Source: Branchiostoma floridae (Eukaryota; Chordata; Leptocardii; Amphioxiformes; Branchiostomatidae). Taken from it: a stretch of DNA of 64,000 bases. This document shows, piece by piece, positions 7,656 through 64,000 of this stretch. How positions within the stretch are numbered: the first letter of the stretch is position 1; every line of letters begins with the position of its first letter. Under the pieces are notes generated by a model. It was given only the letters and a program-made list of their open reading frames with translations. It had not been told where the DNA came from and made no database searches. The position numbers were made by a program, and so were the translations under genes. The stretch lies in contig NC_049982.1 of the NCBI RefSeq assembly GCF_000003815.2, forward strand, positions 11,560,841 to 11,624,840. The letters run 5' to 3'.

Positions 7656-8123
7656 CGTACGATGATCGCACGGCGGACGTGATTGCTTCATTAGATACAC
7701 GACATGGACATCCCTCACAAACCTTACTCACTCAATCAATTTCATGATGGACAAGACGGACTTTTCAACATTTTCTTTTCAAATTGTGAGGCGATAACGA
7801 CAGTTAACGGTGCTGCACCCACACTCCCTGTGTGCCTTCTGTGCCTTCTGCTACTATGACTCCTTGCTGCCTACAGTAGTCCTAACTCGTTGGCTATAGC
7901 TAGGTCAGTATGTGTTTATCCATGTCTTTTAGATCCCAGTGACTAGCATATTTGTATCTTACGCATGATAAGGTACGTGTGTATAGTTTCCGTTGCTTTT
8001 AGAGTAATCAGATTCTTTCTCGATGATGCCATGCCAGCGTGTAAAGTTCATCCGTAATCATAACCGGTAGTTGTGCTCACACCTTGTCAAATGCCGAGTG
8101 CTGATTAGTCGGGAAACTTGCCA

Positions 8124-8171
8124 TATATAGACTCTGGGTCCCGCGTCACGGCAAGGGGGCCACTATTTAAG
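8124..8171 (+). promoter_or_regulatory. Possible core promoter of MMP21 copy B (two TATA-like boxes)
   Basis: TATATA at 8124-8129 and CTATTTAAG near 8162-8170 lie 210-255 bp before the ATG of copy B at 8380. Either could act as a TATA box. No transcription start data are available; the call is based only on motif and position. Confidence 0.3.
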
Positions 8172-8379
8172 AACGGTCAACACACGGCAGACGGCACAAT
8201 CTCTTGTTTTCCATTAGTCCTGGTGACACGCCGAAGTTTGGCGGAGGTTTGCGTCTGGCTCTAGGCCGAAAGAGTAGTTATCTACGTCTATTTCGACTTC
8301 GGAAAATAGACCATAATCGACGAGTCCACAGACATTTTCTGACGACCACTGTTTCCAAGTGTGAGTACCGCCATCAGAG

Positions 8380-14300: not shown

Positions 14301-15539
14301 TCTGGTCAAGGACCTGGGACGTCCTCTTCTTCTTCGCAGGTACGTCTGTAATGTTCAATAACAACAAATGAGAACGAAATGAAACACCAACATGTACTCC
14401 TAGAGTATTGTACATTCTAGGTCACGATTAGTCACATGGGATTATCATTTTTCTCCCTTCTATTTGTTTAAAACAAATACAAGACGTAAATGTGAATATG
14501 ACATGTCTGTTGGGAGTTTGATTTAGATTTGGATAATGATTTTGTAACAGGCCATATGAAGAGGGAGACAATCGGTAAAAATGCCATTTAAAATGATAGG
14601 TAGTCCCGTTGCCCTTTCGACGGGCAATGCGTTGTTAATGTGTCTAGGGAACGGTATTGGAAGGCGGAGCCCATCCCTCTAAGTCCACCGCCTTTTACCT
14701 ACCCAGCTTTCGTCAGGTACTAGTACCCGTTTGACACCAAGGTGGGATAGGTGGGATAAGGAAAGTCGTGTCATGTGACTTTACCAAGGACACAACGTCT
14801 AGCTAGGAATCAAACCCGTGACATCTCAATCTCGTGTTCACTAGCATAGCCATTTGGGAATTTGAAGCCACAAGAGAATTGGCGAGGGGTGGAAATAGAT
14901 TCTCTGCAGCAAATCTCCGGTGCAAATCGTACTTGATATGTAAAAGATGTACATAAAGTCAACCTGATCTCAATCGCTTCTCTGTTCAGGTGATTCCTAT
15001 TGGGAGTACGACAGCGAGCGGGAACAGATCTACACACACGACGCCAACGGAAACCCCTTCCCCAACCTCATCAGCTACGGATTTCCCGGCATCCCCGACA
15101 ACATCGACACCGTCTACTACAACAGAAGTGCCGGCTACACCTACTTTTTTAAGGATCATCTGGTGAGTGAAGAAATATCATTTGTTTCAGGATAAAAAGC
15201 CTTTCGGTGTCAAGGAATCATAGAAGTGGAATTTTGCTGTAAACTACCAACCATTAGATATCTAAGGCACCACCTCCGTTCCAGGTATACCAATACGAAG
15301 TTGAGCGGCAGAGAGTGAGCCCGGGCTTCCCCAAGGAAATCGCTGAGGTGTTCCCAGGCGTGCCCAACAACCTGGACGCCGCCTACTACTCCTACACCCA
15401 CCAGACCACGTTTTTCTTGAAGGGGTTCGACTACTGGAGTATAAGCATCTCGACCGGAGCGATAGATGGGCCGTTTACGGTCAACGAACTGTGGCAGGAC
15501 ATCTGCAAGGTGTGGATGTGGGAGCTGGACGGGTCGTAG
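8380..15539 (+). CDS. MMP21: Matrix metalloproteinase-21-like protease, copy B (complete)
   Basis: Second, complete MMP21-type gene. Exons: 8380-8598, 9608-10316, 11205-11240, 11524-11660, 12099-12243, 14079-14339, 14990-15162, 15285-15539; phases agree throughout, giving 644 aa. A hydrophobic segment at residues ~19-40 ([12 protein letters not shown]) is a likely signal peptide. Prodomain with cysteine switch PRCGNPD (Cys171); furin-type site RRKKRG; catalytic domain with [16 protein letters not shown] and zinc site [11 protein letters not shown] (residues 371-381) plus Met-turn SVMQPNY; then hemopexin repeats ([27 protein letters not shown]). Longer than human MMP21 (569 aa, from memory), mainly in the prodomain. 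The donor after SLLK (GTTGTT) is weak, but that boundary matches copy A. Prodomain and microexon have diverged strongly from copy A, whereas hemopexin exons are similar and one is partly identical. Intron 12244-14078 holds nothing I can identify. Confidence 0.94.
9496..9543. repeat. Perfect 16-bp-arm palindrome flanked by a 10-bp direct repeat
   Basis: Arms 9501-9516 and 9519-9534 are exact reverse complements with a 2-bp centre. The 10-mer GTCCGTCCAA occurs on both sides (9496-9505 and 9534-9543), like a target duplication or a templated repair event. It lies about 65 bp before exon 2 of MMP21 copy B. Confidence 0.8.
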
Positions 15540-26800: not shown

Positions 26801-29800
26801 ATTTGTATATCTTTACATTTGTGCATATCTTTACATTTCTATTTTTCGTTTCCACCAACAGCAAGGCTGGGCCCTGGTTTGGAAATGTGACGTTAGCCTA
26901 ACTAGCGCTGCTCTGTATTTCTTCACCTGGTTCCTGTAGGCATTGTGAAACATGGATGCCAAGCGGTGATGGATTGTCGCAGCACGGTACTGCGCCAGTG
27001 GCTGGCGCGGGGACTCTGTCTCCGTGTCGCAATACCGTATGGACCTGGTCATCAGGTCAACGACCTCCTTTTCCACCTACATCCAACGCAAAGGGGGAAA
27101 AAGACTGTAAACCTGCAGTTATTTAGTCTTTATTCTGGGGAAAACTTAAGGTGTGAGCTGACTCAGAAGTGATAAAAGTATTGTATAGACCTGGTATTAC
27201 ACAACCTCCTTCTCCACTTACAGCCATTCCAAAGGAAAAAGAAGAACACATTTTCACACTACAGGTATTCCCTTTCACAACCAAACTGTGCTGTTACATA
27301 ACTTTTGGAGTGTACAATGACTCAAAAGCGCCATCTGGCAGCGAAAGGAGAAGATGCAATTCCAGTAGCCATCTACAATGCATTGGTTACATGTCCAATA
27401 GTTTTTTCACCTGCTCCTCGGCCTTGATGGAGAGTGGTGCGAAGTCTTGCAGAAGTGTTGCCATGGTGAAGAAAGTTGTTGACAGCTCCCACTGCACAGA
27501 GTCCCAGACCATAGGGAAGGCTGATCGATCCTTCAGGATATGAATAGCTTTCATGTAGTGGTCCCTTGCCTAATCAGAGATGTTAAAAAACATTGAATAA
27601 GTGTAAGAGGAGGTATCTGGTAGAGCATGCTATGTCATGCTGCATGGCTGTAAAAGTACTCCAGCATTAATTGAGGAAGCAAAGCAAATGTAATGAGACA
27701 TTTTCCAAACCTTGTATGCAAAACAGTTGACTTAGAAACCACATCTGACAGTGTACATGTATGTTGGTACATGTATGTCTTTCACATGCATTACACAGAA
27801 TTAATGTAGGGTTTGTCTTCAACAGCAAAATGCAGCACATCAAATGTTTGAGTTTGAACTTTGAATGAATGTACAATATTTGTGTGATTTCTAAAAGCAT
27901 TGTAATGCCATTGTAACTACTCTATCATATCTTTGAATACCTTTACAATCAGATTTCATCAATGTCATAACATTGATACAGTAATGTCTCCTTTGGCCCT
28001 CTACCAACTCTTGCCATGGCTCCTTTACCAACACTGTCCAACGCTCTGGTCAACTCAGCCAAGCACCCTAACCCTAGCCATAGCCTTAACTTCGGCTAAG
28101 TTGACCAGGGTGCTGGGCCGAGTTGACTTGGCTGAATTGTCCTGATCCCCACTTTCCCTACCTTGTTGTAGTAAACCCTCTCCTGTTGTGAGAACTCCCC
28201 CCTCTTGCCTTCCTTGTCCTGCTGTACACAGGACTGAGCCCACACCCTCATCAGCCGGCCAGTGTTGGAGTGCAGCAGAGCGATGTTAGTGGTGTCCATG
28301 GCAGTTCGAAAAGCACCGATACTGGACTCAAAGGCACACAGACTCCTCTGCAGCACCTTGTCTTGATCTGGACCTAAGATGGACACAGAAACACAAGGCA
28401 TTATTATCTTAACCAAGGGACACATTTGTTTTCACAGTTACAAACATAAAATACATTTTTAGGTACATGTAAGTTTAATCTCATGTGATCAATAAACGTG
28501 TATTGGCCACTTTACAACCATAAGATAGGCAGTTATTTAAGCAACTGGATATAATTTTGGAAATGGTCAAACAATTCGATAGCATACACTCCCTTCCACC
28601 AGTGACACTGAGGAAACAGGTTGAAGAGCAGGTTTTATACACTACCTATGAATCGATATGTAACTGTAAAATAAAATTCTCAAATCCTGAAAATTTTTGC
28701 TGGTTTACTTTTGTGATTTTTGCTGTAACCTCTCATGAAACTGTAAATACGTCTCCCTTGTCTGACTCATCGTACTACAGAATTGTTTCAACCAAAAACT
28801 AGGAACACTGCAAGAACCTCTGAAATAAATCCACTGTGAAAGTAAATGAATGCACAGTATGTTTACTGCATGCTCTTCAGCAGCCTATCATGAAGCTCAA
28901 ACACATGTCTGTGCTCACCGTGCTCCATCCCTGAAGCCCTGTTCATGAGTATCACACCCATCTCGTTCTGCACGTTGCCAAGACGCTTGTTCACGTTGAG
29001 GAACTGGTTGTGAGACTCCTTGCGGTTGGTTTTTAGGGCAGCTTCTTCGTAGCAGTGTACGCTGGTTTCCAGGCAACTCTCGATGTCGTGCATGGAGAAC
29101 TCAGTGGCCCAGTCATGTTCTGTATTGGATCACAGGCATAGATGGATGAACGTTGTTAGGCCTATATAGTCTCATCATGATACCCTTGGTTCATGATTCT
29201 ATCACACCTTGACAGGCAACAGTTTAATTCTGGACGAACACTCTAATTCTGGAAAACCTTAATAATTTCTAAATAGATTGACCAGATGAATTATTATTAA
29301 TATTTGTAGGCTATCACACCTTAACTTATCATTAATACTAATACTAGTATTATTTCATGATGATACTACAGCCTTAGAACTGGTACTGAAATGCCAACTA
29401 GTAATCTATAATGGTACTGCAGCTTTGACCTACAGACTGGAAATGGTGACAGAAAGGTGTGAAATCCCAAGATGACGAGGACGATAATAAAACAAATTTC
29501 CCTATCATGAACTATTGGTCCAATATTGCTTGATAAGCATCTCATAATTGTAGCTTTATATCAAGCTATTACTGTTACTGTTAGGAACACTTTGGGGCAA
29601 ATAGACAAGACTTGGCTTACTGCTGCAGAGAGGCTTGGTCAGCTCCTGCTTGGCGCTCCTGGAGATGACTGCATCATCTTGACTTTTGACCTCCAGCTCT
29701 GCCTCGTACACCTGGTGGTTGTCGATGTGTTTGGCCATCATGAGCTGGACGTCTCCGGCCAGGGTCAGTAAGGACGTCTGCAGGTTACGGTTCTCGTGCA

Positions 29801-32800
29801 GCAGCCCAAAGGACAGGGCCGAGAATGCATCTGTGAGGTACACCAGAGGATGGGGTAAGAACAGACAGACATGGCAACGGACAAAGCAAAGAAGAAAGCT
29901 GACATGCAAAGTGAACTTAATTTTCACATTTTCAATCTAATTAGTTACTTAAACATGCTAAAATTAAGACTGCAATCTTCAGATTTAAAGATTTGTTATC
30001 AATCTAAGAGACACCTTAATCAAAATTATTCTAAGCACTAAAGATACATGTATCTCTTACCATAGCACAGCAGGGCCAGTCTGAGGTACCTCAGGGCACA
30101 CCCGTACCTCCCCAGGGTGTTGGTAACGTCCGATAACGCGAAGTATGCTGTGGCAGCCTTCTTCAGTAGCAGGATCTTCAGCTGCCCTTCCCAGGAGTCT
30201 TTGCTGATGTTGTGGCAGGGAGTCAGAGCATGCTGGGATGGGGTGTCCTCACTTACAACTTGGTCTTCTCCCTGACAACCTGCTGCTTCTGGTTTAGAGG
30301 TGCTGTCATCTCCATTTTGGAAGAGCTTGGCATAGTGCAGGGGGATGGCTTTAGAAGGACTGGGGAAGGGAGCTGGTTTGGGAGGGGCCAGTTTGGAAGC
30401 ATAGCTGTCAATCAGCAGGAGTGCCTTGGGATGAAGTGAGAAAGTCTTGTCAATGTCACCTGTAAACAATCTATCTTCCATTTTACTCAGCACTTGAGCT
30501 TACGAACTGTGCTGGAGCATACAAATCATACACAACAAGACCATGTGATGTTTAGCAAAAAAAAGCACACAAAAACGGAAGCTCTGATGCAGTACCAGGA
30601 GACCCAAAATCAACCTTAACATTTGCATCATCCACAACTCCTACCTATATACAAAATGCTATCACAGACAGTCAGGTTTTTACTCTATTGTTCCTGATGT
30701 GCACACACACACACACAGACAGAGATAAAAACTATACCTCCATTTTTTGTGGAGTTAAATGATATAAGTTCCAGCTATGCACAATCCTCTGTACTTAGCA
30801 AAGACACTTTGAGATGCTTACCTTGGACACATAAGACAATGCTGCTCTTGCCCTCTCTTCCACTGACATGGGTTGTCTTGCTTCATGTGGAGGCTAAAAA
30901 ATATTACAAAAATATCAAGCCATTACATCAGTACAGCATACAACTGTACTAATCTCAGAATTCTAGAGTTATCTGTTAGTTAAATCAAGATGTCTGATTT
31001 GATTTGACTTACAGCATAACATTGTTGCCCCAAAACAACCATACAAATGTAGGTAGATAGGTTGGTAAAATTCTTATGGCACTTTGATATAGACTGCTTT
31101 CCATAAACTAAGGAAATCTGAGAATGAAAAAAATGGAGGTAAGCAGTACCAGTCAAAATCATATTCATCAATTTTTGCTGTATGCCATCTATTCAAGTAT
31201 CACGTGGACCTGGATGTCTTACCTTCATTGATGTAGTCTACAATCCCCTACTTACCCTGTTCCCTGATGACCTGTACTTCTCCCGCTCGTACAAGTCCTC
31301 CACTGACTTGATGACAGCAACGGCCAAGTTATCCCCGTCCTGGGACACATCATCATCATCATTGTCGTCGTAGCAACTGCTATCCCAGAATTCCTGGTCT
31401 GCCGTGTCAGAAGAGGCAGGAACGCAGGGATCCTCGTTGGGGTCATCGGGGACAAAGAGATCCGACAACAGATAGTTGGCTGACGTCACAATCTGAGGAC
31501 AGGAAAACACTTCTGAATGACTTGTCACATTTGATGTTCTTTTTGGTTTATAAAGACTTGATTTTCACTGGGCCTAAATTGCTGACAAGGCTTTATACTG
31601 TGCATCCAACATGAAATCCACAAGATAGAACAGTGTGGGTCGCTTACTATTCTCACTTATTATCATTAAGACAGAATTTTTCTCAACTGTTTTCCATCAT
31701 ACTATGGCCAATGTTATCTTTATGTTATTGTTTCCTGTTTTCTTACTACAGGATATAGAATGTAACTCTTCATCTGGTTATAGAGGTACTGTGCCCACCT
31801 CTGGATGTTTGTCCTCATCCAGCAGGTCTATACACTGTTTCAGCAGCTTCCTGACAGTAGGAAAGTCCTGCTTGTGGCAGTTACTGTCCATCAGCATGTT
31901 GCGAGCAACTCTGCAAAAGAAGAAAGCCTTACTAGATTACGTTAACCATATGTCTGTGCAAGGTCTTTTGCCATTGTAATAACACTACCAGTATCAATAG
32001 TGAGATGTTTAAAGAATTAGGTGATGACACTATTTCATCCCAAACTCAAGCAACTCAAAACACTTAGGATAACAGTTTGACCAACCAGTCATGAAATGCT
32101 CAACATGTGCTGAGATCTAAGATAACTTAAATGTGGCCCAAACAGGAGTAAAGGGTTTCAGAATGCCTGTATTGCCTACAATGCCTGTTCTTATGTTGTA
32201 CTGTGCTGTTCTTACGTTGTGTTGTACTAAAGTTTGACTTGACCATACACATCAACAATTCACATCCCAAACTCATCCCTGAAAAGTTATAAGAGATACA
32301 AATGATTTTGTTGTTAACTGTACTTGTTTTGAACAGAGAAAAACTGCAGTAGTGAATATCAGACTCCTGACCTGTACAACAGCATGGCTACAGGCACAGA
32401 GAAGGGGTTGGATGTTTTATCCTCCATGTTCTCAGAGCACAGTGTGGTCAGGTCATACAGCTTCACTACGTCATCTCCATTTCCTGTGGAAAAAATTAGC
32501 TTGTCAACCAACAGCAACTTGACAATTAAGAATATTACAGAATGAAAACAAATGCATTGCTGTATGCTCTCACCTCACCTCACTTCACCTCATCTGATCA
32601 CATCTATCCCTTAGTCTATTTTTGTGCCTGTTTGTTGATCAAGATGTCTTTTTGTACAGATATGTGTAAAACTTCATCTATGGCATGATCTACATGTTAA
32701 GTAAGACAACACAAACACTTTGCCCCTACATGTACTTTAATCTATGCAATGGCCAATCACATGTAGTTGGATGAAGTCTAGATGTAGGACATTTGTAGAA

Positions 32801-35800
32801 CTTGTTCATCAGCATCACCTTTAAGTAGCCAGTAGGTGTGACCTTCCTTGGTACAGTTGGACTTGAGGAAGGACAGGATGTTCTGAGCAATGTCCTTAAT
32901 GACCTGGGGGGAGAACCGCGAAGCATCCAGGTTGGGGATCTCCTCTGTCTTGATCAGCTCATATTGCTGGACACAAAACACAGGGGAGGTTCATTACAGT
33001 TGTCATGATGGATGTCATCTACAATCACAAGGTTTCCATTAGGGTTTCTTTCTGTAGCTTTGTCATCAACCCATTGCTGGAGGCTTTGCACATTTCTATG
33101 CCATGTACTAACAACATTGTGACATTCACGTGGATGTCACGATGATTGCAATACCATCTATAGTTTCAGTACCATGGACACAATGAAGCTTTTTTATCAG
33201 AACAACACCCATAAGACAAACTGAAACACTGTGCTGACAAAATCAGCTAGTTGTGTCTGTAATAAGATATAAAGAGAAAAATACCACTGACATAAGGACA
33301 GTCATGCCTGCACTAGTGACCACCTTTTTGTCTTTAAGATAATTCTTCCCATTGACACAAGCATTAAGTAGAATCCCATCTGTAGTGACCACCTGTTAAC
33401 ATACATGTGTAAACCAGACGTCACCAGTCGCCTGAGAAGTCTTTTAGGGCAGTTTTTACTGTGCAAATCAACACCTTGTACCAACCTGGACCACCCCCTC
33501 CAGGTGGTAACACATGACCAGTTCAGGAACATTACACATCAGGTTATCCAGCCAGTAGTCCAGACCAGTCAGCACGTTGATTGGCTTCTTCATGTCCCTG
33601 AGAAATACATGTAGGGAACCAACATGTTACTTGCTATACCTGGTACATTACTCCTGTTTCTAAGGTGTATCATCGGTAAAAGAAAATAGTTAAAAAGGTT
33701 AAGTTAAAGTCAATTTTTCTGGTTCATAAAAAGTAATGGAAGATTTTGTATTTGGAGGATCTAGAACCTAAAAAAATAATATCAAAACAGCTAACAATTG
33801 TGAAAGAAAGACCAATGATGATGATTTTTCAGAGAATTAGCAGAGCTGTATCCTATATATGAATAAATCTAAAGTTAACATGTACAGGAATGGAAAACCA
33901 CTAAGATGACTAAAAAGTTTTCCCATCTTCTAGTAAGTTGCACTTTCTAGATTGACAAGAAGTTCCATTGATTTTGAAGAATCTGTAATGTCAGGTCTCA
34001 GGTGTGACATAACCTATGGCAGATGCACAGGGCCTACCTACCTTAGTCTGAGGCTCACAGCTGGGTGAGTTCCACCTCCAAATATGGGCATGTCTGTGCC
34101 AATCAGCATGCGGATGTCTTCAAATGTCCAGATGACATTTCTCTGGAACTCACTCCGGAGGCTTGGGTCTTCAGGCTGAGCAGTGGGGAAAGGTGGTATG
34201 TGCAAAAAAGTACTGTGGATCTTATTAGTACATATCCCTCTATAAAGATTGTCACAATGAATACTCCAAACAGGACAAACTCTGTGAACTTCAAATGGCT
34301 GATCCCCTTCTTAACCATTTGGTCACAAGTAGCATTTCTCATCTCTTATTCACCTCTTACAGTCCATGTTATATTCAATACAGCTGCAGTATTCTCACCT
34401 CAGGCAGGAGGTCTCCATTGTTAAGACTCTGTCCCGGGGCCAGTCTGCGGTTAGTCTCCTCGGGACAGTTTCCTACTGCCCCTTCCTCCTCACACTCCTC
34501 ACCACACACTTCTGAGTAACTGGGCGGAGACTCGCCTTCCTTCCCATCCTCAATACTGGACACATGGGAAAAACAACATCACATCCTCTTTCTCCTAGAA
34601 ACACAGGGCTTCAACAAGACTTCTTAACTCTAAAACTTATAGACTGACATCATATGCTCATCTAAAATGAGTGTCTTGTCATGTCACCAAATCTTTTTAG
34701 TCTTTACAAATAAGATAGAAAATTAAGATGTGAAAACATACCTTCTATACAGGAACTTGGAGAACATACTCCTGTTTTGAAGGTGATCTCTTGTCTTTTT
34801 CTTCCTGGAGAAGATTTTCTCCTTCAAAAGTCAGATATGCAAGACATGATGAGTACAAATAATGATGTATAAAACTATATATTGTAACTATTATACAAGC
34901 ATTACTAAAGGCAACTGAATAAACCAAGCACCTGTGCTTGTAAAAATTCAAACATCATAAACAAGAATGTCTTGACTCTGAATTCTAAAAAAAAGTACCA
35001 TACCTTTTCCTTCACATTCTCAAGGACGTGCTCTAAGTAGAAATCTCGCAACCACCTCCAGTTTTCCCTCTGCAGGATATAGAACACGAAAGACTCTCAA
35101 CAAACCAAGTATACCCTCATAGTTATAATTAGAATAGTAGCCACTTACATGTACTAAGCTTTGGATACTAGTGGAAACTACTATATTTGTAACAGAAAGC
35201 AAGCCTAACGGAAGATCAAACAAAAGCTACAACTAAATAATATAAAAAGCCTTTTCTAGCTTATTTTGAAATATGACTTTCTATATTATCGGATCCCCAC
35301 TTGCACACTGCTATTTAACATAATGCACATTCTGGAGCTTGTATCATATACATGTAAGTTCCTGAAAATAGAGTCCTTGTAACAGCTGTCAGAGTACCAC
35401 ATACTGTAACTGACCTCAGCTCTGAGGAGACTACTGTAGATGTCAAACTCATCCAGCAGTAAGGTCCGCCCCACCCTGTGTACTGCCAGGGAAACACTGC
35501 CTTTACTGAATGGGATCTTTAACAGTTTCTTGATGTTCTGAAATGGAATATAGAGCACATTCAAAAACATACTTGTGGTCTGATTAGACATAAAGGTTAT
35601 GATATGCAATGGCAATGGTTTTATCGACTGAGTGTGGAAACTAACATTAATGCAACCTATCCATTTCTATTCTAAAGTGGTTTACACCTGATTTCCAAGC
35701 TTCATGACACAAGATTGTACTTGAGTTAACACATAGGCCACACACTATACCGGATCTACAGGATATACAACGAATACTGTCTTAATTATAAATGGCATTT

Positions 35801-37136: not shown

Positions 37137-41289
<4,153 letters not shown>

Positions 41290-47300: not shown

Positions 47301-50300
47301 TTTCGATAAGTTCGCTCGTCAGCATGCTCGGAAGGCGTCAAACATGTGTACTTTTTTCAATCGTTATCTGTTGGGGATTACCAATTTGGACACACACTCT
47401 GACTTTTCAGATATTTACAACAAGGTTTAGTCCATAACAAGTTGTACTTATCATGTGCAGACACTTATGCATATCTCCGCAAAAATGATTTTAAAATCCT
47501 ACCGGAGTTTGGACCCCTACCGGACTTTGGACCCCTCCCGTTATTGGAAATCTCTGGGGATACCTTGTGGATGAACAATCTATGCAGTTACACAAGACTC
47601 ACAATCATCGCAAATCTTGTACTTCATCGCTTTTCATGCATTTTTGTCAGGGTGCTCTATATATGTGACATGACCTGGCAGAATTATGTTAGTAGACATT
47701 ACTTTAATATATAATACATGTAAACAAACACATGACATGACGTCTCTAACCCCTGCAGATGCAGAGTCTCCTCGGAGCTGGAGTTCGGTTTTGTCACCAG
47801 CGCGTGTCCGTGTGGGCGTGTCTTCCTGGTTGGAGACCGGTAAGCAGCTGAGTTCCAGGGTCCATGCCTTGGTGAAGGATACTGCTGCAGGTATGTGCAC
47901 TTAGTCTGGAGTCCAGCCTTGCTCGCTTTAGTCTGCTAACGAAGGTCACGGAGGACAGTTTGTGTCTAGAACACTAGGAGAGGATGGCAGTTCATCTTAT
48001 CAATTGGAGGAAGATATAAAGATTGTGACCTATGGAATTTCTCAGGGGTGTCAGACAAGACAGACCATTTTCAGTATGGACCAGGGCAAGTTGGACCAAC
48101 ACCTACATCTAGGTGGAGTCCTAACCCTTACCCTTACAATTGTCAATGGTGACTTGGTTTAAGTTGACAATGGTCTGACTTGTTCTGATTCCCTGTCTTG
48201 GCTCTCCCCATTGAACAACTGATTGTTTGGTACTGTATCATCTGTATTTGTTTAAATAACCTGCCCTTTGGTATAACATACCAGCTAACTGTATCCTGTC
48301 TTCCCAGTTTCCCCTGCCAGTCCAGTGAAGGTGGAGGCTGACGCTCCCCTGACAGCCGAGGACGTCCCCGTGTCACCTCAGCTCATGAAGTCTGTGGCCC
48401 TCGCCTTCCGCAGACAGGAGGAGATCAACAAGGTTCAGCTCTTCTCTCTGAGAGCCTCTGTATGATGGCTGGAAATTCATTTTTGGGAATCGCTGGACAG
48501 AAAAAAATATAATAAAGTCGTATGCCAGCAAACCCACCCTGCAAGTAGAGCAGGTAGCATCCTCCTGAATTTTTTTATCTATATGCCTCAGGAACACTGT
48601 TTCCTATGGGGCAAATTTAATGAAGTAATGCCAATGTTTTAAACAACTTGTTGATAAAGAATGGAAAAGCCTACTTTGCTGGGTGAAACCAAGGACATTT
48701 CCTTGCTTAAACGTATGTAGGGGATAAAAATCACAGCATAGGGGTCTATGGTTGACTGAACTGGCAAGAATCCAATTGCTGTTGAATATAAAGCATCTAT
48801 TGTTCCATCTTAAAGTGTCAGTACTGAGAATAGATTACTGTAGGGCATGTATTAATATTTCTTTGTGTTTGTAGGCAAATGCAAACCTCTGCAGGCTGAA
48901 CTATGCTGTGAATGTGGCCAACTATGTCAAACACAAACAAGTAGAGGTGAGTTCAGTGTGGGACAAAATTTATTTGAAAGGCTTAGTTTTAAGAGTTTCA
49001 CTATGTCGTCAAAATGTTGATGTTGAATTTGCCAGGACAGTGACAGGGGTTGTATATTGATAGCTGCATGAATGATTTCAGATTAGTTTGGGATGAGTTT
49101 AACAATGCATGCTTTCTATATGGTGTGTGATTATTGGGTGTTTCAATTATTTGCCATGATGAGGACTGCCTACATTGGGAACTACATTGATTGGTGCATC
49201 CACTATTTTCCACTGTTAGAATGTACAATCATTAAAGGAAGTACATTGATTGTTTCTGCTTGCTTGTGTTTTTCATAGCAAGCCGTAATACAGGGACAGA
49301 AGCAGCTGTGGAAACTCAACAACAGAGTTCATCATCAGACAGAGACTATAGGTAATATGAGACTTTGCAGTATGTAGACAGTCTATATAATATGTAGCTT
49401 CAACATAGGCATTTACTCACATACATGTATACCTAGACTTACCTCTTGTGTTTGACACATTAGTAAATCCAGACTGTAAGGTTTGTTCCACTCAGACTGA
49501 ATGAGACCCCTAGTAGGTTACTGCTTTAATAAGTGTGGTGAGTTCTTTTAAGTGCTCAAGGTGTGACTGTGACCTCTGGCTTTATATCCCATCCAAGAGA
49601 ACATACCTAGCTGGAGCCACATGTGTAGATACTCATTGTCACCGGAGTTTGAAAATAGGTGTTGAGGAGGTTGGGTCTCATATTTATACCATATATTTAC
49701 TACCAAAGTTGCATTGAAATGAGTATGACTTACTAAAGATATAGGTGGATTTTTTCTATCAAAATATTCAAATATCTATGTGAAATTAAGCTGTCTTGCA
49801 GGAGGCTAGCCTTACAAGAGGGGTTGACTAACTAAGATGATGATGTAACAAGCTGTGAACTGGTTCTACCATGCTGCAGGTCACCTCCAGGACGGAGTGC
49901 GTAACCTGTCCACACAGGTCCAGCTGCAGAAGGAGACAGCACAGAGGATGAAGAACAGCATCGATGCACAGCAGCAGCTGTTCAGCTCCACTATACTGGA
50001 GGTCAGTCACATTTTTTGTGTGCAAAACCTATAAATTACTTTAAAGCCATAATAATAATACATGTACTGTACTAGCTTTGTATAGTTGATACAAGCTGTG
50101 TAGGACTAGCCTGCAAGGTTTGATCCACTGTAGTGGAACCTTTAACTTGCTGGGGGGTGTTGCTGTTCTTAAACTTCAGTTTTATGTACCATCCAAGAGG
50201 ATGTCCCTATTTGGAAGCACTCATTTTCTTTTGAGTCAAGTGAGAAAGTAGATGCTAAGTACCCCAAGAGCACAACATAGGTGCCTGCTAGGGATTAGGA

Positions 50301-52059
50301 CCCAGAACTTTAAGATTCTAGGTCAAAAACCTTAGCCACATGACCATGTTGTCACTTTGTGTGTACAGAACAGGTGCTCTGAATCCCCAAAGTTTGGACA
50401 GTAGAAAGTTGCAGAATTGAGTCTTGAGAATTGTTATTTTTTTGTAAGTTAAATCCACTTGAATGATGTTTTGACCACTATTGTTGTTTGTTTTTACAGA
50501 ACCGAATGGAGCTGGAACGACAGCAGAGTCTTTTGACCAAGCAGCAGGCTGCTATGGATGTGAGTTCTGGGCACTTAGTAATTTGTTTATCATTCATGTT
50601 GCTTGTACAAATGTAAATACATTGTACTGAAAGACAGAACTTTGGATAAATGAGAGTCCAGACGTCCTTTTGAAAAGTGATGTGTATGAATCCATGTATG
50701 AAGTGTTGCATCCTAGCCTGAATTGGTACCATATTTTCTGTGTGTTTCAGCACTTGATCAGACAGAAACTCAAGCATGACTTCCTGGTAGATAGCGGGTA
50801 AGTTGAAATTACAGTAGACTTACAGTAGTTTTAGCCTGTAATTTTGTCTTTCTGAATTTTGACCAGAATTGCTTAGAGCAATTTTGTGGTTTACTAGGAC
50901 TTTGTTTGCTGTCTTCCTAAATATTACAAAATGTCATACTGTTTTTTCTCTCACCAGCAAGCTTGTTAATTTCAGATTGCATACGATAGATGATCCTGTT
51001 TTTTCCTTTCCAGACTCCTATACTTTATGGACTTTGCATTTGACAGTGTATGTAACATGTGCCATTCTGTGTTGTAGACTTCTCGTAGGGACAATGTGGT
51101 TTGTGAACAGCTTGCTGGTTGACTACCCACTGAAGACAGTCTTGGTGGTGGTGCCCAGAACCAAGCTCAGAAACTGGTGAGTTTAGGAATGGACTAAGAA
51201 CAATGATGTATGTGTGTAAGTGTATACGTAAGCATGTGTATAAGAGTCTGTATAAGCTTGTGGGAGAGTTACTGCAGGCTGACACCAGAAAAAATAACCA
51301 CACACTGCTGACATAAAAAAATGTAATCTTTATCCTTCCTTCATGGTCTGTGTCAAGTGACATTCTTTTTTTGTTTCTGTATTGTGGCCCAGTTTGAAAT
51401 TTTGCTAATGTTGGTTTCCTACATACCCATGACTGATGAATATTGGCATTATGGAAATAAAAGTGTCATCTCTTGTATTGGTTTCAGGCTCAGACAGGCC
51501 ACAAAGGCACTGCTTGTCCTTCAGATGATGGGTCTGCTGAAGTCCTGGTCTGTAAAATGTGGCCTACATAACAGGTAATACTAGTACCACAAGGGTACTG
51601 GTTTTGTTTTGTATTTTTTCATAATGACCTCTCCACCATGAATATTATGACACCTCACCTATGCATCTCTGATGTATTACTCCTGAATTCTATCAACTGC
51701 GGACCAAAAAACACAGCAAAAAACCTCCTTTCATATTTTGTAGCAAAATTATATCTCTGTATTTACAATATCCAGAAGCTTGTACTTTATATTTGGCAAT
51801 GTAACCACCTGTCTTTATCAGTATGTTACTGCTTTTTTCTGGACTATCAGGTCTGTCCCAGTGTAATGAGTACATTGTCCTGCTGTTGTTTTCCAGTGTT
51901 GGATCCCTGCTTCCCTATATACAACATGCCAGCACACTTGCAATGGGCAAACTGCAGGAACTGAGAGCTGTGAGAGTGTGGAGAAGAAGACCTGCCCTCC
52001 CACCAGACCAGGAGGATAGTGAAGACAGGCCACCTCAAACTGCCCTGAACCTCTGCTGA
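44372..52059 (+). CDS. Unrecognised coiled-coil protein with C-terminal hydrophobic segments
   Basis: Exons 44372-44492, 47759-47890, 48308-48432, 48875-48946, 49279-49351, 49880-50001, 50500-50559, 50751-50797, 51078-51176, 51488-51574, 51897-52059 (stop TGA) join with consistent phases to 366 aa. The acidic N-terminus starts MFSPDGDLDILSEDGEF. Residues ~40-120 are Ser/Pro-rich. Residues ~125-250 are Gln/Lys/Glu-rich with coiled-coil character (HLQDGVRNLSTQVQLQKE, MELERQQSLLTKQQAAMD). A hydrophobic stretch follows (LLVGTMWFVNSLLVDYPL, residues ~252-270), then TVLVVV, then a second (ATKALLVLQMMGLL), and a charged, Pro-rich tail. This architecture suggests a protein anchored in an internal membrane near its C-terminus, with a cytosolic coiled coil. 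I cannot name the family. Exon joins and length are well supported; function is not. Confidence 0.8.
45860..46695. repeat. Four-copy tandem repeat of about 215-235 bp in intron 1 of the coiled-coil gene
   Basis: Units begin near 45864, 46080, 46313 and 46541. Each runs from a GTAGAACG/GGAACGC-rich GC segment, through CAGAGTGA/CGAGGTGA and GGTGCTGCGCTATCAACCA, to TCGACAATAAGCTATA and ATCAAATGAAAGGTAAGG, then a TTTTCAAGAATTTTCATGAAC-like end. Units are diverged (roughly 65-80% by eye) and show no reading frame. It looks like a decayed satellite or minisatellite array. Confidence 0.8.
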
Positions 52060-54945: not shown

Positions 54946-57900
54946 TCAGGATTTCCCTCCTATCTTGGCTATCAGGTCGTCACAGATGGCAGTCAGCTCT
55001 TTGTTTTCTTGAGCCTGCAAAGGAAAATGAAGTTTACTTGCATGTCTGTAACAACACCTGCAATGGTGGCCATCTTTAATGGACTGTTCCCATTGAGCGC
55101 CCTATCAAACAAATAGAACCCCCTGTTCAATTTCGAACATCCCGGTCAACAACAGCCCCAGAGAGACAGAAATAGCCAAAGCTCTGTCCTACTTCCACTG
55201 TTTCTGACCGAGATGTTCGGCTGCGTTTGCCTTGCGTTCGGCTAGAACAGTCCATTGAACATATTCTAGGGAAATTCAGTTAACACTACTCAGTAAACAC
55301 CACCAACGGTACAAGTGGACAGATCAAGTAAGTAGTAAAGTAAGTAAGTAGTAGTGTACTCAGTAAACTGTAATCAGGTGCCATGGATCCATTTACCACA
55401 TTTGCTCAACAGTAACCATACATGTACTGCACAGCCAATAGACACATTGTAATGCAGCTACAAAGGAATAAGACCCATTCTTTAGAAACACTACAGAAGC
55501 CGTACCTGCTGCTCCACTGTTCTCTCCAGACTGGCTGCCTTGGTCTCCGCTCTCTTCAGCTGAGCCTGCAGAGCCATGACCTCCGTCTGGTTCGACTTCC
55601 TCACCCTGTCAATCTCCTGGTTGGCACTGTGGCAAACAATTGCTTATCATCAGATCACAGCACAAACATATTAAATAAAAGGATACATGTAACAACAACA
55701 ATTATCTGAGACGGATCGAGCAACAAGACTGGGAGTATGGTTTAGCTGTTGTGTAGGGGAAGAACCATTCTACTGTAGGAAGTTGTCCTGTGAAGGAAAT
55801 TTGGTTGTTGGAATGGAAAAAATTTCACAGTACTGCAATTTCTGAAAACTTACTTTGGAATCTCTAAATGAAACATTAAACACAAAGGAAAATCAACAAA
55901 ATGGGCAACAAAAAATGAGTGGAACAGAAGAAAGTTTAAAGTAGTAGACAGCCCTGGTAAAGACTGATGTCTTTTTTCAAGATCTGGGGTAACCCTTGCT
56001 CAGCATTAGGCATGTAAAACAAGACAAGACCTTACCTCTCAATTTTTTCCTCAGCATGTGACTTGAGGGACTGATATCTCTGCTCCTGTTTCTTCAGTTT
56101 TGTCTGGTACTCCTGAATGCACTTCTTCATAGTTTCTTCATTCTAATGTAGGATAAGAGAAATAACACGTCCGTTAGTTTGAAATAACTAACAAACAAAA
56201 GTCAACAAGTCAAATGTTATAAGTGAGTACCATTGCTGTATTGTCATTTATTAAGTTTCTCACCTTCTTAAGCCCCTCTACAACCCCCTTCAGCTTGTCA
56301 TATCTCTTGTGTAGGTCACTGAAAGATTTCTCTACGCTGGCTAGATCCTCCAGAGCCTGTGGTGGGCAAAGACAAAGCTTGTGTTAGCAGGTCACAACCC
56401 TTAACCATTAGCATTGGAACTAATGCACATGTTTCAGCATGCCAAAGGTCAAGTTAAGAACTAGCTAAAATGTACAACACACATAGGTTGAGTTAGCCCT
56501 ATCAGTCTTGTAAAAAAAAAACTACCACCGCAGAAACTTTTAAGGACTTAAAATGAGAAATCAGTCTTTAGGCAGTTTATATATACTTTTACCAACAACA
56601 GACTGAAAAATGACTTACCTGTTCTTTTTCTCTGATGAGCTGCATTTTGTTTTCTTTTGTTAAACTTTTATCCTCTGTAGAAAAGAAAACAACATGAGGG
56701 AAACATGATGGGATGTTAACACATGTAGCAACATGTGCCTCCGCTACAGCAGCCCATGCAGCATGGCATGACTTACATGCAGAAACAAAAGCATTCAATA
56801 TTGTGTCAGCTTGCACATGCTTTTCAACTATCACAGGCAGTGGAAAAAAGGAAGGTAAAGCAAGAAAAAAGCCACAAGACATCAAATAAAATTCAACCAA
56901 AATTAAGTGAAGACAAAAAGAGAGCTTATAGAAACAAATGCAAGCATGCATTCTGGGGTGCAGGAATTAGAAGAATGTCAGAATTTTGAACAGCAGTTGC
57001 AGCAGCAGTAGCTTTGACCTGTCAATACAAGCACAAGCACATCTGACAGCAGAGAATAATATATGGTCATCTCTGTGAACAGTTCTTCAATGCCAGATAT
57101 TTTTGAGCCACCTGATGTAAAAGTGTGATGGCCACCAGCTTCTTTCGAGTATCATCTCTTGAACAGGTAAGATCATCCAAGGCCAAAAAAAATCTTTTGC
57201 ACCTTTAGGTAGGTCACAGACATTACGAAAGACTATTCAGCCTGGTAAACACAACTGTACACACTGTATCAAGACACAGCTTAATTCTAACACACTGACA
57301 CTTGCAGACACTGCTACCGCTGACGTCAGCAAAGATACTTGAACGAGCTATTCCAAGCATCACAAAGCAAATATGCACACCTGTGTACCAATGTCAGCAT
57401 GCACAGGCAAGAGCAACTTATGTTAGAGCTGTGTAAACCAGGCTACTGATGCAAATTTCCTGATTTTTGGATCATCCAGTTACCAGCTGTGCTATTGACA
57501 GATCAACAGCACATGTAAAGATGTGTACAATACTTACCAAATTCAAATTTTAACCTGTCCGCCTCAAGGTGGTCAAGTTTGTCTGAGATGTCACAAATGG
57601 AAGGAAGGAGAGAGCCAGGGACAGGAGGACAGAAGACATGAGTGGGACATCAAGGACACACCACGTGGTGCAGTGACACAAGAGGAAAAGAGAAGTCAGT
57701 AGTCTGGCAATTGCATAAGCAAGTAGTGCCTAACAGTGTAATAAGCACCTTAACTACAACAGTTTCACTTCAATGAACAACATCACTAGATGGTTCATTG
57801 AAATGAACTATGAACTTACTAATCTATGGCCACACTTTCGTATGCTATCACCCTGACTTTACTCCAAATAGACTTCGATCCAGCTTAGTCAAACATTATG

Positions 57901-60900
57901 CTGTATTTCTCCCGTATTGACCTTTCTCAATCTCCAACATCTCCCTAATTATAGAATCATTCCATATTCAATGTAGTAGTATGATAGACAGTTGTAAATC
58001 ATTATCTGTAAAAAAATTGTGTCATCTACAACTCAAACTGATGTCAAAGCTTATCATTATTTGGTAAGACATTGCAGAATACAGTGCCTACAACAATCTT
58101 GTACCACTATTACCAGCATATTTGTAATGAATCTATTGATGAATCTATTGATAGTAAATCAGTTTTACTTATAAGTCATTGACCTTAACAGGCTAGTGGA
58201 ACTTACCGATCATCTGCTGTATGGTTCTTTCAAAGCCTTCCACCACTTTCCTAAGAGACAAAAGCAAAACAGTTAATTGCCATTGTTTTTGCATGCACAA
58301 ACATGGAAGGTCACATCTATAGCAGATATCTATTGGCAGGACAATGCAGTTCCAAATGATATGAAAATATATGCTTCATAGTGGCTTATCTCTTTCACAG
58401 CTGAAACTACTTTATCTTATCAAAAAACTAATGTTAGAAAATGGCCACACATTTTTACTGGGCAGGACCACCCTGTGAGCACACAATCACTGTCCAACCT
58501 CATGTTCAGAAAAATTCTCCACCTTCTCCTAGATATAACCTTCTCCCTGATTCTATGTAACCTACTGACTTTACACATAAATAGTATGTATGAGTCCAGA
58601 AAACAAAGTAAATAAATCACGATAACTCCAATATGGTTGACTAATACTTCTTCACAGACTTATAAAGAGTGCACATTTCCATTCTTTGATTACTATGATC
58701 ATAAGATCGAGCACAAAGAACAAGCGTAAAAAGAAGAGGATGATTACTTCATCTCCTGGTTGTCTCTCAGGGCCTCCTCCTTCTGTCTGCAGACCTCCTG
58801 AAACTCCAGGTCTCGTACAGACATCTTGATTGCCCACTGTTTCACACAGGAATACAGTTAGATACCAGATTCACCCTAATCTACAACTGGAATTATCACA
58901 AATCCCGCTATCTGGTCTTGATATGACCAGCTTAGACAAACAACTGTTCATCTTCAGTTCCACCACCATACTGGCACTTAATCTTTACCAGTAAACATTT
59001 ATATAGCCCACATCATAAAAACTCTGTACAATAAACACTAAAAAACATAAAATCAATTCAGTCACAATTAACACCAACCTCTTTTTCCACCTCTTCCTTA
59101 GCCTGTTTGATAGCAGCATCCTGATCAGCTTGGGAGTACCGTAACAACTGTGAGGGGAGAGATGTTTCTTGTCATACATGTTTTCTCTGTACATACAAAC
59201 TAACAAACAAATTCCGTACTCGTGTTCAAAGTCATTATCATGATAACTGTATCCTCTGTATTTTGGGTTGTCCTAGCTAGATGTTCATGCTTATCAATCA
59301 TTGAATGCATGGCACTAGATACAGCATCATGTCCACCCAAAATCTCATCCTAACATAGTTTTCCAGAAGAAACTTACCTGTACAATGCCCTCATCTTGTT
59401 TGGATGCCTTGGGAGCGAAAGACTCGGTGGTTCGTGGTGGGGATGGTCTCGGGGACGGCTTGTCTTTGCTAGTTTCTGTATCAGGAGTCTGAAAGGGGTA
59501 AGTGTTCAAAAGTTAGACTCACACACATCAGGCGACACAGTGGATGGTGGAGATGCCTGGGATGGAATGAGAAGTGGAGACAGGGAACACTTGGACAGAA
59601 AGAGCATGCTTGTACAGCTACATGCTGTTGTGTTGTATCACATGTAAATGTGTCACCATAGAAAAACTGTCAAGCATGCTTCCATTAAAACACAGGACAA
59701 TTATTAAACATATAACACAGTTCCTCTCTGCAATGTACTTATGTACATTAGGCATTTTAGACATAGATCCAATATGCCCAATATGTGATCTTCTCTGTCA
59801 TACATCATACATACACGGAAGAACATATAATTCAACAGCATGAGTAACCACAAGTTAATGAATAACATGTAGCCACCATGTTTAAAAAACAATGCAATAC
59901 ATTGCCACAATAAACCTTTGTTCATACAGTACTGGAAGTATGTTTATCACCAAGTGTTGTGTTTCAGGTCTACAAACCTGTTGATATACCACAGAACACA
60001 AAACAAAACAACACTGTACAATTCTGGGTTAGTACAAGGTTGTGCCTTTCAGGCAGTGAGAAAACTGTTAGTAAGGTTGGTGCAATTAATGTGCATATTT
60101 TCTTTTATATAAATGTCACATGCCTTGTCCACCAGTAATAAAGCTGTATCTGAATCTGATGTGTTACTCTGTGCATCACAACTGACTTTACCACATGTAT
60201 TGTGGACCGTTGGGTACTTATCACAAATATCATAATGCATTAGGACATGTAACAAGGAACAGCAGGATGTACAATATCTGTGCAACTGCAAGTACTTATT
60301 TCTACAGTTGGCACCATTGGATACCCGTGCTCATAAAGCTTCATGCTGGTTATGACATCAGCACTCAAGACACACACCTCTACTAGTGAAACATATAACA
60401 CCAGGCAGGCTTATTTACTGTGTATCACCTTGGTTGGTGGACATGGCTGGGGTGTTTCGACTGGTTTGTTTTCCACTATAGTGGATTTTTGAGGCACTGT
60501 GGCTTTGGCTGGACCATTGGTTTCCGCAGGTATAGGTGACTATTTGAACAGGCAGATCAGACAGAAGATACAAATCCTTCAGTACAGTGGTGACTGGATA
60601 GACCTCATTAATGGACAATACAGCAAAGGAAGAGAGAAGTCATCTATCACCACATAGCATAACTGTGTGGATACAAGAGAACAAGGCCAAGGCCACAAGA
60701 CAGTTTAAGAAGCTACATGTATACCTTTGCCTCAGGCACAGCCTGCACCTCTTCCACCTCTACCTTACAGGTCTCCACAGTACCCTCATCTATGGAAGCT
60801 TCCCGAGATAGCTTTGATTTCTGCTGTGTCGGCGGACGAGGAAATGCAAGAATGAGGTGGGAAATGTAGGAGGAAAACAACACAATGGCATGGGAATAAC

Positions 60901-63900
60901 AGAGAAAACAGGAAAAAAGGGAAACTTAGTGTCTCAACAGTTAATGTTAAGAATGAATTTTATTGAAGCAAGCAACAATCTTAGCAAAACAAACAGAAGA
61001 GTGCAAAGCGAAAACCTTGAAAGTGGAGAACTTAGTGGGCAGCTGTTCCCACTGGGTTGCTAGGGTCATTATATCATTGGTTTGCTTCTTGCTTTTTGTC
61101 TAGAATCACAGACAGGGGAAGAGGGAAAGAATGCGTTGAGTCAAAGCATACTGTTATTAAACAAGACTGAAGAGTAAATGCTGGAATATTACAGCAATCA
61201 TTTAACATTTCAGACTGTAGCAGCTTCATTATGATAACCATACAAAGCCCACACACATTCCATAAGGGATGTACATGTATCACCTCAGCTAGGTTGCACT
61301 GGGACCGGGGTCTGGACTTTGGGGTGGGGGGTTCACTGGAACACTTTTTGTCTCGCTACAGAAAACCGTGGGTGAGACGTGTCAGAAAAAAACATAAGAA
61401 GGAAAGGTACAAAGAGGAAAGGAAAAGAATAAAAGTATGATTAGTCATAAAATGGTTTTGTACTATCAAGTGTTACAAGGAATTCTATCACCTCTGCTCT
61501 AGGCCTTGACTTTGGGGTTGTTGGTTCAGGTTTGTTTCTCCTGTCCCTCTGTGATAGGAAAGAAGTATTATGCCTTTGACTTTGAACTCTCATCATACAG
61601 AAAATATTGCTGAAGATGTTAGTAGGGTTGGAAGGGTTACAATCTACTGAGCAGAGGAGAATTAGTACCTCAGCATTGGAGAGGGAGCGGGGCCTTGGTT
61701 TCAATGCCGCTGAAGTGTTTTCAGCTTTTTTCTTGTGCTGATGGTTACAGAAATTGTACATGTAGTCAGTTACATCTACTGTTAACAGCTAGGCAATACA
61801 AAGGGATGGGGAATCAAAACCAACTAAAAGGGAAAAAAGTACTAGACAATTTGAATGATCAATATGTCTATGATTGTGCCTGCACCCTGACATATCATAG
61901 AGTAAAGATTGAAACTAAATGAAGTAAAGTTAAGTAGATGATTTAATGATGAGAAGGGTGGGAATAAGGGTTAGGATACCTCAGTAGTAGAGGCGGACCG
62001 GGGTCGAGTGCTGGGCGCTGGAGAAGCAGAAGTGGTCCTCTTCTTTAGAAGGGAAAAGGTAGGATAGGTTTTGAGTTGTCAAGGATGGGGAAAAAGCAAG
62101 TTAGAGAACTAAAAAAAAACAAAAACAAAATAAGAGTTAATTACAAAATAATATCTTGAGATAGTAGTCACCTCAGTAGTAGAAAGAGACCTGGGTCTGG
62201 TCTTTGGGGTAAGAGGAGCTTTGACGTCTTTTTTCTTGAAGTTATGTAAAAAGTAAGGAAGTGGTTAGAGGACCATGGTCAAGGTGTTATGCAGTTCAAC
62301 AAGACAGGGAAAGGCAGGAATCTGACAACTCTGAGTGAGAGGGAAAGTGATATTAATACCTCCATAGTAGAGAGGGATCTGGGTCTGGTCTTTGGTGTTG
62401 TTGGAGCAGACGTGCCCTTTTTCTTTTTAAGTCACAATACAGCAAAGAACACAGTTAAAAGTGAATATTTGACAGGCAAGTTGCCTAATCTATTAATAAT
62501 TTGCGGGAATAAGCATAAATAAAAGGAAATGCAAGAATAAAGTAAGAGATTAGAAAAAAAGAAAAGCTGGATAAAAGAAAACCAAGGAGGTTACCTCTGT
62601 GGTGGAAAACGAGCGAGGTCTTGCCTTTGGGGTGGGGGGTGCACTTGTTTCTTTTCGCTTTAGATTAAAGTGAGTCGGGCAATATACAGGTAAGACAGGG
62701 AAAGTAATACAGTTAATACTAATAATAGGTTAATAGGAACTTAGAATTTGAAGAGGACAGAAATGGGGGATATACCTCAGTTGTGGATAGAGAGCGTGGC
62801 CTAGTCAGAGGGGTGGTGGGGGCACTCTTACTCGGGTCTTTCCGCTTGAAAAGGGCAGATTAGACTGAGATGTTAGCCAGACTGGGAGGAAACTTATCAT
62901 CAAGGCCATGACTATCAGGTACTAGTATAGTTAGACTATCAAATGATCTTTAGCGCTCTAAAGGTAGAACAATGTACCAAAGTCCTGGTACACTGGTCAC
63001 CTGGAGTCGTAAAGATCAATCAACAGTCAGCAAGTCTAGAGCAAAGCTACATCATATGTATGTTTCACACTACTTTCATTCATACATCTACATTGACCTA
63101 TGTAAGCACAAGGTAATATCACTATTACTGTCTGGACTGTATGGTACATCAAATCTGCATAGACACACTAGAGACCTTGCATGTCAAACGTCCTTCAAAC
63201 TCAAGTTGCACACCATAAGACCTGATAATTGTCTTTACTAAGTGCTCATGTTCTTGCATGATAAAAAGAGCAATCCAGGATTGATAGTCACCTCTGACAA
63301 AGCGCGAGGTCTTGTTTTAGGCGTTCCTGGCTTTGCCCTAGAAGTATCCTTAAGGTGCAAACATAACTACATATATCAGGATCAACACAATGTACTGTTC
63401 CTGTTACAGCAAATAAAATAAAATCATGCACACAGCATGCCCTCTCAATGCAACCAACACCAACTGGATCAAACAAAAGTTGGTATCTTCCCATGACTTC
63501 CAAAATCTGTTCACATCTTCAGCAGATGGTTCATTTTGAACATACGTGCATTGCACGGAAACAATATACTAGATAATTCTGTCACGAGTACAAAACCCAT
63601 GCTTATTGATCAATATAATGCATCATAAACAGCACCACATGGGCAACATGACCTTCAAACAACAAGTCAATGCCACTCAACATGATCTATCTAATGAACC
63701 CTTTAAAGCAAAAGAAATAAGAACCTCTCCACTGCCTTGTTTCTTATTTTGTAACTTGGGAGTTGTTTTGGGTGTCGCAATCTTCTTTTCCTTGTTATCC
63801 TATATGAGTAGAAGTTCACATTGAAAGAAAAATTCTTTATTTGAAAAGAATACAAAATGGTAAATAATATGACATTGGGAAGACATAAAGTAAGAAAAGA

Positions 63901-64000
63901 TCAAAAGGGAAACATGTAGGGAACAAACATAAAAGCACCTCAGTGTTCGATGCTGACATGGATCGCTGAAGAACTTTCTTGTTCTCTTTTTGTTTGCCAA
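54946..64000 (-). CDS. TACC: Transforming acidic coiled-coil protein (TACC), 3' part
   Basis: Centrosome and spindle adaptor; the TACC domain recruits XMAP215/ch-TOG-type microtubule polymerases, and Aurora A phosphorylation controls it in known members. TACC-domain exons, 5' to 3': 59378-59488, 59079-59147, 58748-58836, 58207-58250, (57538-57582 optional), 56619-56674, 56264-56356, 56036-56142, 55506-55626, 54946-55014 (stop TGA). Key stretches: [61 protein letters not shown] and the C-terminus [16 protein letters not shown], all typical of TACC1-3. Further upstream: 60725-60823 and 60429-60539 (Pro/Glu-rich), then an array of small repeat-encoding exons (61284-63348) and diverged ones at 63725-63799 and 63939 to beyond 64000. 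The N-terminal part lies outside the window. The coiled-coil domain is about 215 aa, the usual family size. Confidence 0.94.
57538..57582 (-). other. Candidate 45-nt cassette exon inside the TACC domain
   Basis: Good acceptor (CTCAG) and donor (GTAAGT), phase 1 on both sides, encoding [15 protein letters not shown]. Joining its neighbours directly gives [13 protein letters not shown], which resembles vertebrate TACC1 at this point, so inclusion would insert 15 residues (about two heptads) into the coiled coil. Confidence 0.55.
61016..61099 (-). other. Possible decayed or alternative TACC exon
   Basis: An 84-nt open segment in phase 0 with acceptor CTAG and a poor donor (GTTTTC). Its first residues (TKSKKQTND) recall the basic start of the repeat units, but the TPKxRPRS core is absent. 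It could be a degenerate repeat exon or a chance match. Confidence 0.25.
61284..63348 (-). repeat. Array of nine homologous small exons in TACC encoding a TP-K-x-R-P-R-S repeat
   Basis: Exons at 63292-63348, 62776-62844, 62595-62657, 62360-62422, 62172-62234, 61980-62042, 61669-61737, 61492-61548 and 61284-61355 (57, 69, 63, 63, 63, 63, 69, 57, 72 nt). Each starts and ends in phase 0, begins with basic residues (K/R-K) and ends with Glu just before a GT donor. Consensus: KK-(3-6)-SAPxTPKxRPRSxSTTE. Unit examples: [51 protein letters not shown]. Introns between them are about 115-430 nt. The same-phase, same-pattern exons must come from repeated exon duplication. More divergent members may lie at 63725-63799 ([10 protein letters not shown]) and 63939 onward ([10 protein letters not shown]). 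Confidence 0.88.

Follow-up and report, generated by a model that had tools for sequence, protein, structure and literature searches.

A nine-exon, exon-per-repeat array in the TACC gene of the amphioxus Branchiostoma floridae

Analysis of a 64,000-nucleotide (nt) stretch of the Branchiostoma floridae genome (contig NC_049982.1, positions 11,560,841 to 11,624,840; hereafter the window) revealed that the TACC gene on its minus strand contains a genuine, ancient and selected array of exons, each of which encodes one copy of a short basic peptide repeat. The nine exons, R1 to R9, measure 57, 69, 63, 63, 63, 63, 63, 57 and 72 nt; all are in phase 0/0, all end in a glutamate codon directly before the donor (GAG|GT), and R1 to R9 are separated by introns of 118-447 nt. 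The original prediction, which had proposed nine phase 0/0 exons of 57-72 nt ending in Glu at these positions, was thereby borne out in every one of these respects. Its term "micro-exons" does not apply, as that name is given to exons of up to about 30 nt.

R1: 63292..63348, minus strand, 19-amino-acid (aa) unit; alternative in-frame acceptor 18 nt upstream (possible start 63366)
R2: 62776..62844, minus strand, 23-aa unit
R3: 62595..62657, minus strand, 21-aa unit
R4: 62360..62422, minus strand, 21-aa unit
R5: 62172..62234, minus strand, 21-aa unit
R6: 61980..62042, minus strand, 21-aa unit
R7: 61669..61731, minus strand, 21-aa unit; alternative in-frame CAG acceptor 6 nt upstream (possible start 61737)
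R8: 61492..61548, minus strand, 19-aa unit with a short tail
R9: 61284..61355, minus strand, 24-aa unit; alternative donor 27 nt downstream

The repeat exons and the gene that carries them

A profile built from the nine units and run against all six frames of the 64 kb recovered exactly R1-R9, at 21.2-44.4 bits, with the next match at 5.7 bits and a best score of 9.3 bits in 10 dinucleotide-shuffled windows. When each unit was sought with a profile of the other eight, all were again recovered (10.7-37.8 bits); the weakest, R7 (10.7 bits, E value of 0.045) and R8 (11.6 bits, E value of 0.025), barely exceeded the best shuffled score. Of the nine, R1, R8 and R9 were the only ones called by a plain splice-score scan, which placed the start of R1 18 nt earlier and the donor of R9 27 nt further on; the borders of the other six exons therefore rest on homology. 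The 5′ borders of R3, R4, R5, R6 and R9 are well fixed, because in each case the acceptor that was chosen is the first AG to occur in 61-107 nt. Moreover, every exon from the divergent unit U1 (described below) to R9 is flanked, on one side or both, by an in-frame stop no more than 60 nt away, so that splicing is needed to read through the region. Each of the nine repeats thus corresponds to one homologous, frame-preserving exon, and we regard it as practically certain that the array is real and coding. Searches with the array protein returned no Pfam family up to an E value of 0.01 and no solved structure up to an E value of 1, and Tandem Repeats Finder saw no array at the DNA level, the copies being too diverged for it.

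Between 64000 and 54946, the minus strand holds the 3′ part of a gene for TACC, a spindle- and microtubule-linked coiled-coil protein, as the original prediction had proposed. The C terminus of its product matches Pfam TACC_C over the full profile (positions 1-201 of 201, 1e-58), as well as TACC3 coiled-coil structures (7.2e-20 and 2.3e-8; 5lxn and 4pky), and the protein hence possesses the C-terminal TACC coiled-coil domain that marks the family, other hallmarks of which are binding to chTOG/XMAP215 and regulation by Aurora A. The array and 13 downstream exons (D1-D13) share one frame with AG/GT borders and remain open through to the TACC stop codon.

D1-D4: 61099-61016, 60820-60725, 60539-60429 and 59488-59378 (span 59378..61099), minus strand, linker exons, all in phase 0/0, not related to the repeat
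D5-D13: 54946..59147, minus strand, exons encoding the TACC C-terminal coiled coil (assigned by TACC_C and the TACC3 structures); stop codon at 54946-54948

As had also been predicted, the repeats precede the coiled coil, from whose TACC_C match they are separated by 137 residues. Across the genome (513,431,437 bases in 431 contigs), TACC_C matched three exons, every one of them within this gene; these counts are lower bounds, and B. floridae apparently has a single detectable TACC gene. Vertebrates have three.

Closer inspection of the region upstream of R1 showed that nine is an undercount: all nine predicted copies are real, and two divergent units bring the array to 11 and extend it to the edge of the window.

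U1: 63725..63799, minus strand, divergent unit exon of 25 aa, phase 0/0, ending GAG|GT, without the RPR core shared by R1-R9
R0: about 63939..63998, minus strand, partial unit at the window edge, 20 aa readable, donor GAG|GTGCTT, also without RPR

The summed similarity of U1 to R1-R9 was reached by none of 1,000 shuffles and its best pair by 2/1000; the corresponding figures for R0 were 2/1000 and 26/1000. In the same comparison D1-D3 were unremarkable and D4 was reached by 97-106 of 1,000 shuffles. The pattern S.S..E|GT, which was picked after the units had been seen, occurs seven times over both strands of the window, always within the array including R0, and shuffled windows contain 0.7 occurrences on average and four at most. 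We call U1 and R0 divergent relatives because the nine-unit profile of the window found neither of them and neither has RPR.

The gene probably continues beyond the window, where a hand-called set of small exons and a long acidic exon were read.

L003:8505-6600: minus strand, upstream of the window, seven further small exons (57-78 nt), frame-preserving, hand-called, not related to the repeat by profile
L003:6393 downwards: minus strand, upstream, long exon of at least 314 aa, net charge of -44 over 314 readable residues

The seven small exons probably belong to the same TACC gene, whose N-terminal half seems to be built of cassette-like exons. Given the acidic exon upstream, the basic array has an acidic arm on one side and the coiled coil on the other.

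Age of the copies and conservation of the peptide

Over the 10 aligned codons that end at RPR (36 pairs of units), identity at codon positions 1, 2 and 3 was 0.625, 0.844 and 0.328, respectively, a difference attained in none of 20,000 permutations of positions within codons. The mean proportion of synonymous differences (pS) was 0.75, which is near saturation, compared with a mean proportion of nonsynonymous differences (pN) of 0.25, and pS exceeded pN in all 36 pairs. Under one and the same DNA threshold, 16 of the 36 exon pairs were similar, while intron flanks were similar in 0/36 pairs on each side and full introns in 1/36; full introns of a control set were similar in 5/66 pairs. The exons most alike in DNA were R3 and R9 (0.83) and R4 and R5 (0.80). 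Since introns and silent sites are no longer alike, the duplications are old, and it is the peptide rather than the DNA that was kept. A recent segmental duplication was rejected on the same intron comparison. Collectively, these data leave very little doubt that the units are under selection as protein.

Alternatively, unequal crossing-over could have multiplied a harmless disordered exon whose copies were kept only insofar as they did no damage. R7, R8, R0 and U1 have indeed drifted in parts of the motif, as such a process would allow. However, copies that evolve neutrally ought to have lost RPR or gained stops, whereas RPR persists in all of R1-R9 at near-saturated silent sites, which makes a neutral expansion very unlikely. 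The introns bear likewise on the possibility of a Dscam-like cluster of mutually exclusive exons that would contribute one unit per transcript. They carry no shared sequence that could provide common selector elements, as only the single pair of full introns is similar, and their lengths betray no evident spacing constraint; the exons, for their part, differ in length and are all symmetric, so that several can be included together and still keep the frame. We consider mutual exclusion highly improbable.

Aligned on RPR, the units share each of the three residues in 9/9 cases. A proline at position -3 is present in 8/9, preceded by Thr in seven units and followed by Lys in seven; Ser stands right after RPR in 7/9 and again two positions further on in 7/9, and the final Glu is invariant. 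The consensus SAPxTPKxRPRSxSTTE, which had been ascribed to every copy, therefore holds for its RPR core, while TP is found in seven and RPRSxS in six of the nine. The most conserved feature, PxxxPR around the invariant RPR (8/9 units, R7 being the exception), had been missed. Net charge is +3 or +4 per unit and +30 over the 190 aa of the nine units, in agreement with the predicted basic character; the array product is a basic, proline-rich segment and presumably a disordered one.

Two kinase classes had been suggested for the serines that follow RPR. The AGC-kinase (AKT/S6K-type) consensus, RxRxxS/T, is matched as RxRxxS by 7/9 units (not by R8 and R9), so at the sequence level this part of the proposal stands. 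The Aurora consensus calls for a basic residue two positions before the Ser (-2), and here the suggestion fails: Pro occupies -2 in RPRS and Ser or Ala in RPRxxS, and [KR]x[ST][^P] occurs in four of the nine units, elsewhere than at these sites. Among other linear motifs, SH3 class I was rejected with 3/9 units, and SH3 class II, SxIP-like and 14-3-3 mode I motifs were rejected with 0/9 each. As the copies are few and of shared ancestry, motif counts cannot single out the motif that was selected.

The PxxxPR motif raises the possibility that the array is a multivalent docking platform for SH3 domains of the CIN85/CD2AP type, which would recruit adaptors in proportion to repeat number. The near-constant PxxxPR and the invariant RPR speak for such a role, as do two precedents: in PMC2833206, PxxxPR is reported as the CIN85 SH3 motif, of which the first Pro is required, and PMC6033098 describes Px(P/A)xPR motifs of a microtubule-tracking Theileria protein that bind CD2AP. 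The strict form Px(P/A)xPR, however, fits R3 only, and the class I and class II counts given above do not help. The likeness to CIN85/CD2AP ligands lies in the PxxxPR motif, and with the strict form in one unit out of nine we did not file the array as a member of that ligand class; as judged from these motifs, SH3 docking of this kind would be an unlikely function.

Splice sites and a possible control of repeat number

The donors of the array are consistently weak. A guanine at donor position +5 (+5G) is absent from all 11 array donors and present in 8/9 of those of D4-D12 (p 7e-5); for R1-R9 against D1-D12 the counts are 0/9 and 8/12 (p 0.005). Predicted pairing to the U1 small nuclear RNA (snRNA) had a median of -6.6 kcal/mol in the array versus -9.6 kcal/mol in D4-D12 (p 0.006 for R1-R9), a difference that reached significance once D1-D3, which are also weak, were excluded. 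At the other end, AAG acceptors are used by 7/9 of R1-R9 and by 0/12 of D1-D12. Weak donors of this sort would be compatible with regulated skipping, which we consider plausible. The original prediction had derived such skipping from the phase 0/0 of the exons; D1-D5 and the seven hand-called upstream exons preserve the frame too, and symmetry alone is therefore not special.

Our preferred explanation combines these observations. A small symmetric exon of about 21 residues was duplicated repeatedly in tandem within the TACC gene, and selection on the protein kept the copies. Each unit might serve as a linear-motif module, in which RPR lies inside PxxxPR, with the proline-directed TP just before it and RxRxxS, of the AGC-kinase type, just after; the motifs themselves are observed, and their use is our proposal. 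Several units together could dock multivalently onto a partner or onto some acidic surface, phosphorylation on either side of the motif could weaken this docking, and regulated inclusion of the weakly spliced exons could set how many units each molecule has, as their donors and symmetric phase would permit. We give this explanation as a whole an even chance of being right. Its parts differ: repeat number is rather likely to be varied by splicing, to judge from the splice sites, while docking with a phosphoswitch as described is a tentative suggestion drawn from the motifs. In its most far-reaching form, a valency dial set by splicing would yield 0 to 11 or more TP/PxxxPR/RxRxxS modules, with adaptor docking switched off from both sides by two kinase classes and tissue-graded scaffolds made from one TACC gene; this we hold to be quite improbable.

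Several observations weigh against this explanation. The units share ancestry, so that neither pairs of units nor splice sites are independent and the p-values overstate the differences. When pairing to the U1 snRNA was first tested, with the whole of D1-D12 for comparison, the difference did not reach significance (p 0.087). Nor are weak sites confined to the array: D1-D3 lack +5G as well, and among the seven hand-called upstream exons +5G is absent from five and an AAG acceptor is present in three. Motifs for Rbfox, QKI, PTB and CELF were not clearly enriched in the array introns. The scarcity of the strict Px[PA]xPR form (1/9) and the absence of the RPR core from U1 and R0 count against the docking part, and charge and disorder alone may be what was selected.

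A simpler reading is that all the exons are always included and that the array is a long, basic, disordered spacer free of splicing control, with exon-per-repeat organization reflecting merely how the repeat spread. That every exon is in frame and coding agrees with such a constitutive linker, and so does the very uniform charge per unit. Against it stands the consistent weakness of the array donors relative to D4-D12, and we regard a constitutive linker as possible but somewhat unlikely.

Exon arrays of this architecture are already known, and titin PEVK and cortactin, in which splicing changes repeat number, are the nearest precedents in architecture. In PMC6469411, titin PEVK is described as an exon array for a repetitive segment that alternative splicing makes longer or shorter. 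The amphioxus array is likewise an exon array encoding a repetitive segment; PEVK acts as a spring, whereas the amphioxus units carry a conserved basic, docking-like motif with putative phosphosites. Cortactin and HS1 are cytoskeletal proteins with exon-encoded repeats, too, and splice variants that lack repeats change binding to filamentous actin, according to PMC554100. By the description given there, their repeats are set apart as actin-binding units of 37 residues that are fewer in number: HS1 has three and a half of them, and cortactin six and a half.

Within the TACC family, PMC1175095 reports a 24-aa repeat of variable copy number in mouse TACC3 complementary DNAs and two 12-aa repeats with an insertion/deletion polymorphism in exon 4 of human TACC3; it ascribes the variation to such polymorphism and sees no firm evidence for alternative splicing of TACC3. 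The amphioxus gene resembles this system in that short peptide repeats reside in a TACC gene, where in TACC3 the copy number is reported to vary. The repeats of TACC3, however, lie together in one exon, in contrast to one exon per repeat in amphioxus. Among the matches listed from open-licence papers, we found no account of the array in amphioxus or Branchiostoma TACC. If graded skipping does occur, the array would offer a natural series for relating motif number to scaffold strength at microtubules or centrosomes, and would do so in an animal whose TACC gene is apparently the only one. It would also imply that repeat-number variation in TACC genes, which in mammals is reported as a DNA polymorphism within one exon, can come under the control of splicing.

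Further matches and neighbouring genes

The sequence upstream of the window (29.8 kb, of which 6,537 bases are N) held nothing that the profile scored higher than the best shuffled sequence; a looser tail pattern matched there once, without profile support. Genome-wide, a two-unit query returned six matches, four in the array and two at E values of 3.6 and 6.3. Because it missed five known units, the search was repeated with all nine. Of the resulting 28 matches, the best nine were the nine exons themselves (E values of 3e-7 to 0.017). The other 19 were long, had 23-40% identity and E values of 0.03 to 7.8, and look compositional; 11 of them share a single open frame, which is on a different contig. 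This frame of 1292 aa (G000:C11:514157-517465; array-protein matches at E values of 0.4 to 7) perhaps encodes another repetitive Ser/Thr/Pro-rich protein.

Several other genes share the window with TACC. On the plus strand, opposite to and downstream of TACC, a coiled-coil-like gene lies at about 48300-50600; pieces of it that were read by eye matched ADIP at 0.0096, which is below the cut-off. EDRF1 occupies 26927-34281 on the minus strand (EDRF1_N 7.7e-73, TPR_EDRF1 2.2e-55). Matrix-metalloproteinase (MMP)-like segments extend over 2674-14371 on the plus strand, with a PG_binding_1 match of 3.1e-10 and with Peptidase_M10 and Hemopexin below cut-offs. Within them, the open reading frames (ORFs) 2674-3072, which has no Pfam match, and 13913-14371 are much alike by eye, which suggests tandem MMP copies. 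In humans, TACC2, EDRF1 and MMP21 all map to 10q26. Further plus-strand features are an ORF with DUF6451 (39821-40390, 2.6e-13), presumably the end of the ORF of a non-long-terminal-repeat retrotransposon, and a PA-domain exon (40418-40632, 2.4e-6), which we take to resemble proteins of the PRADC1 type.
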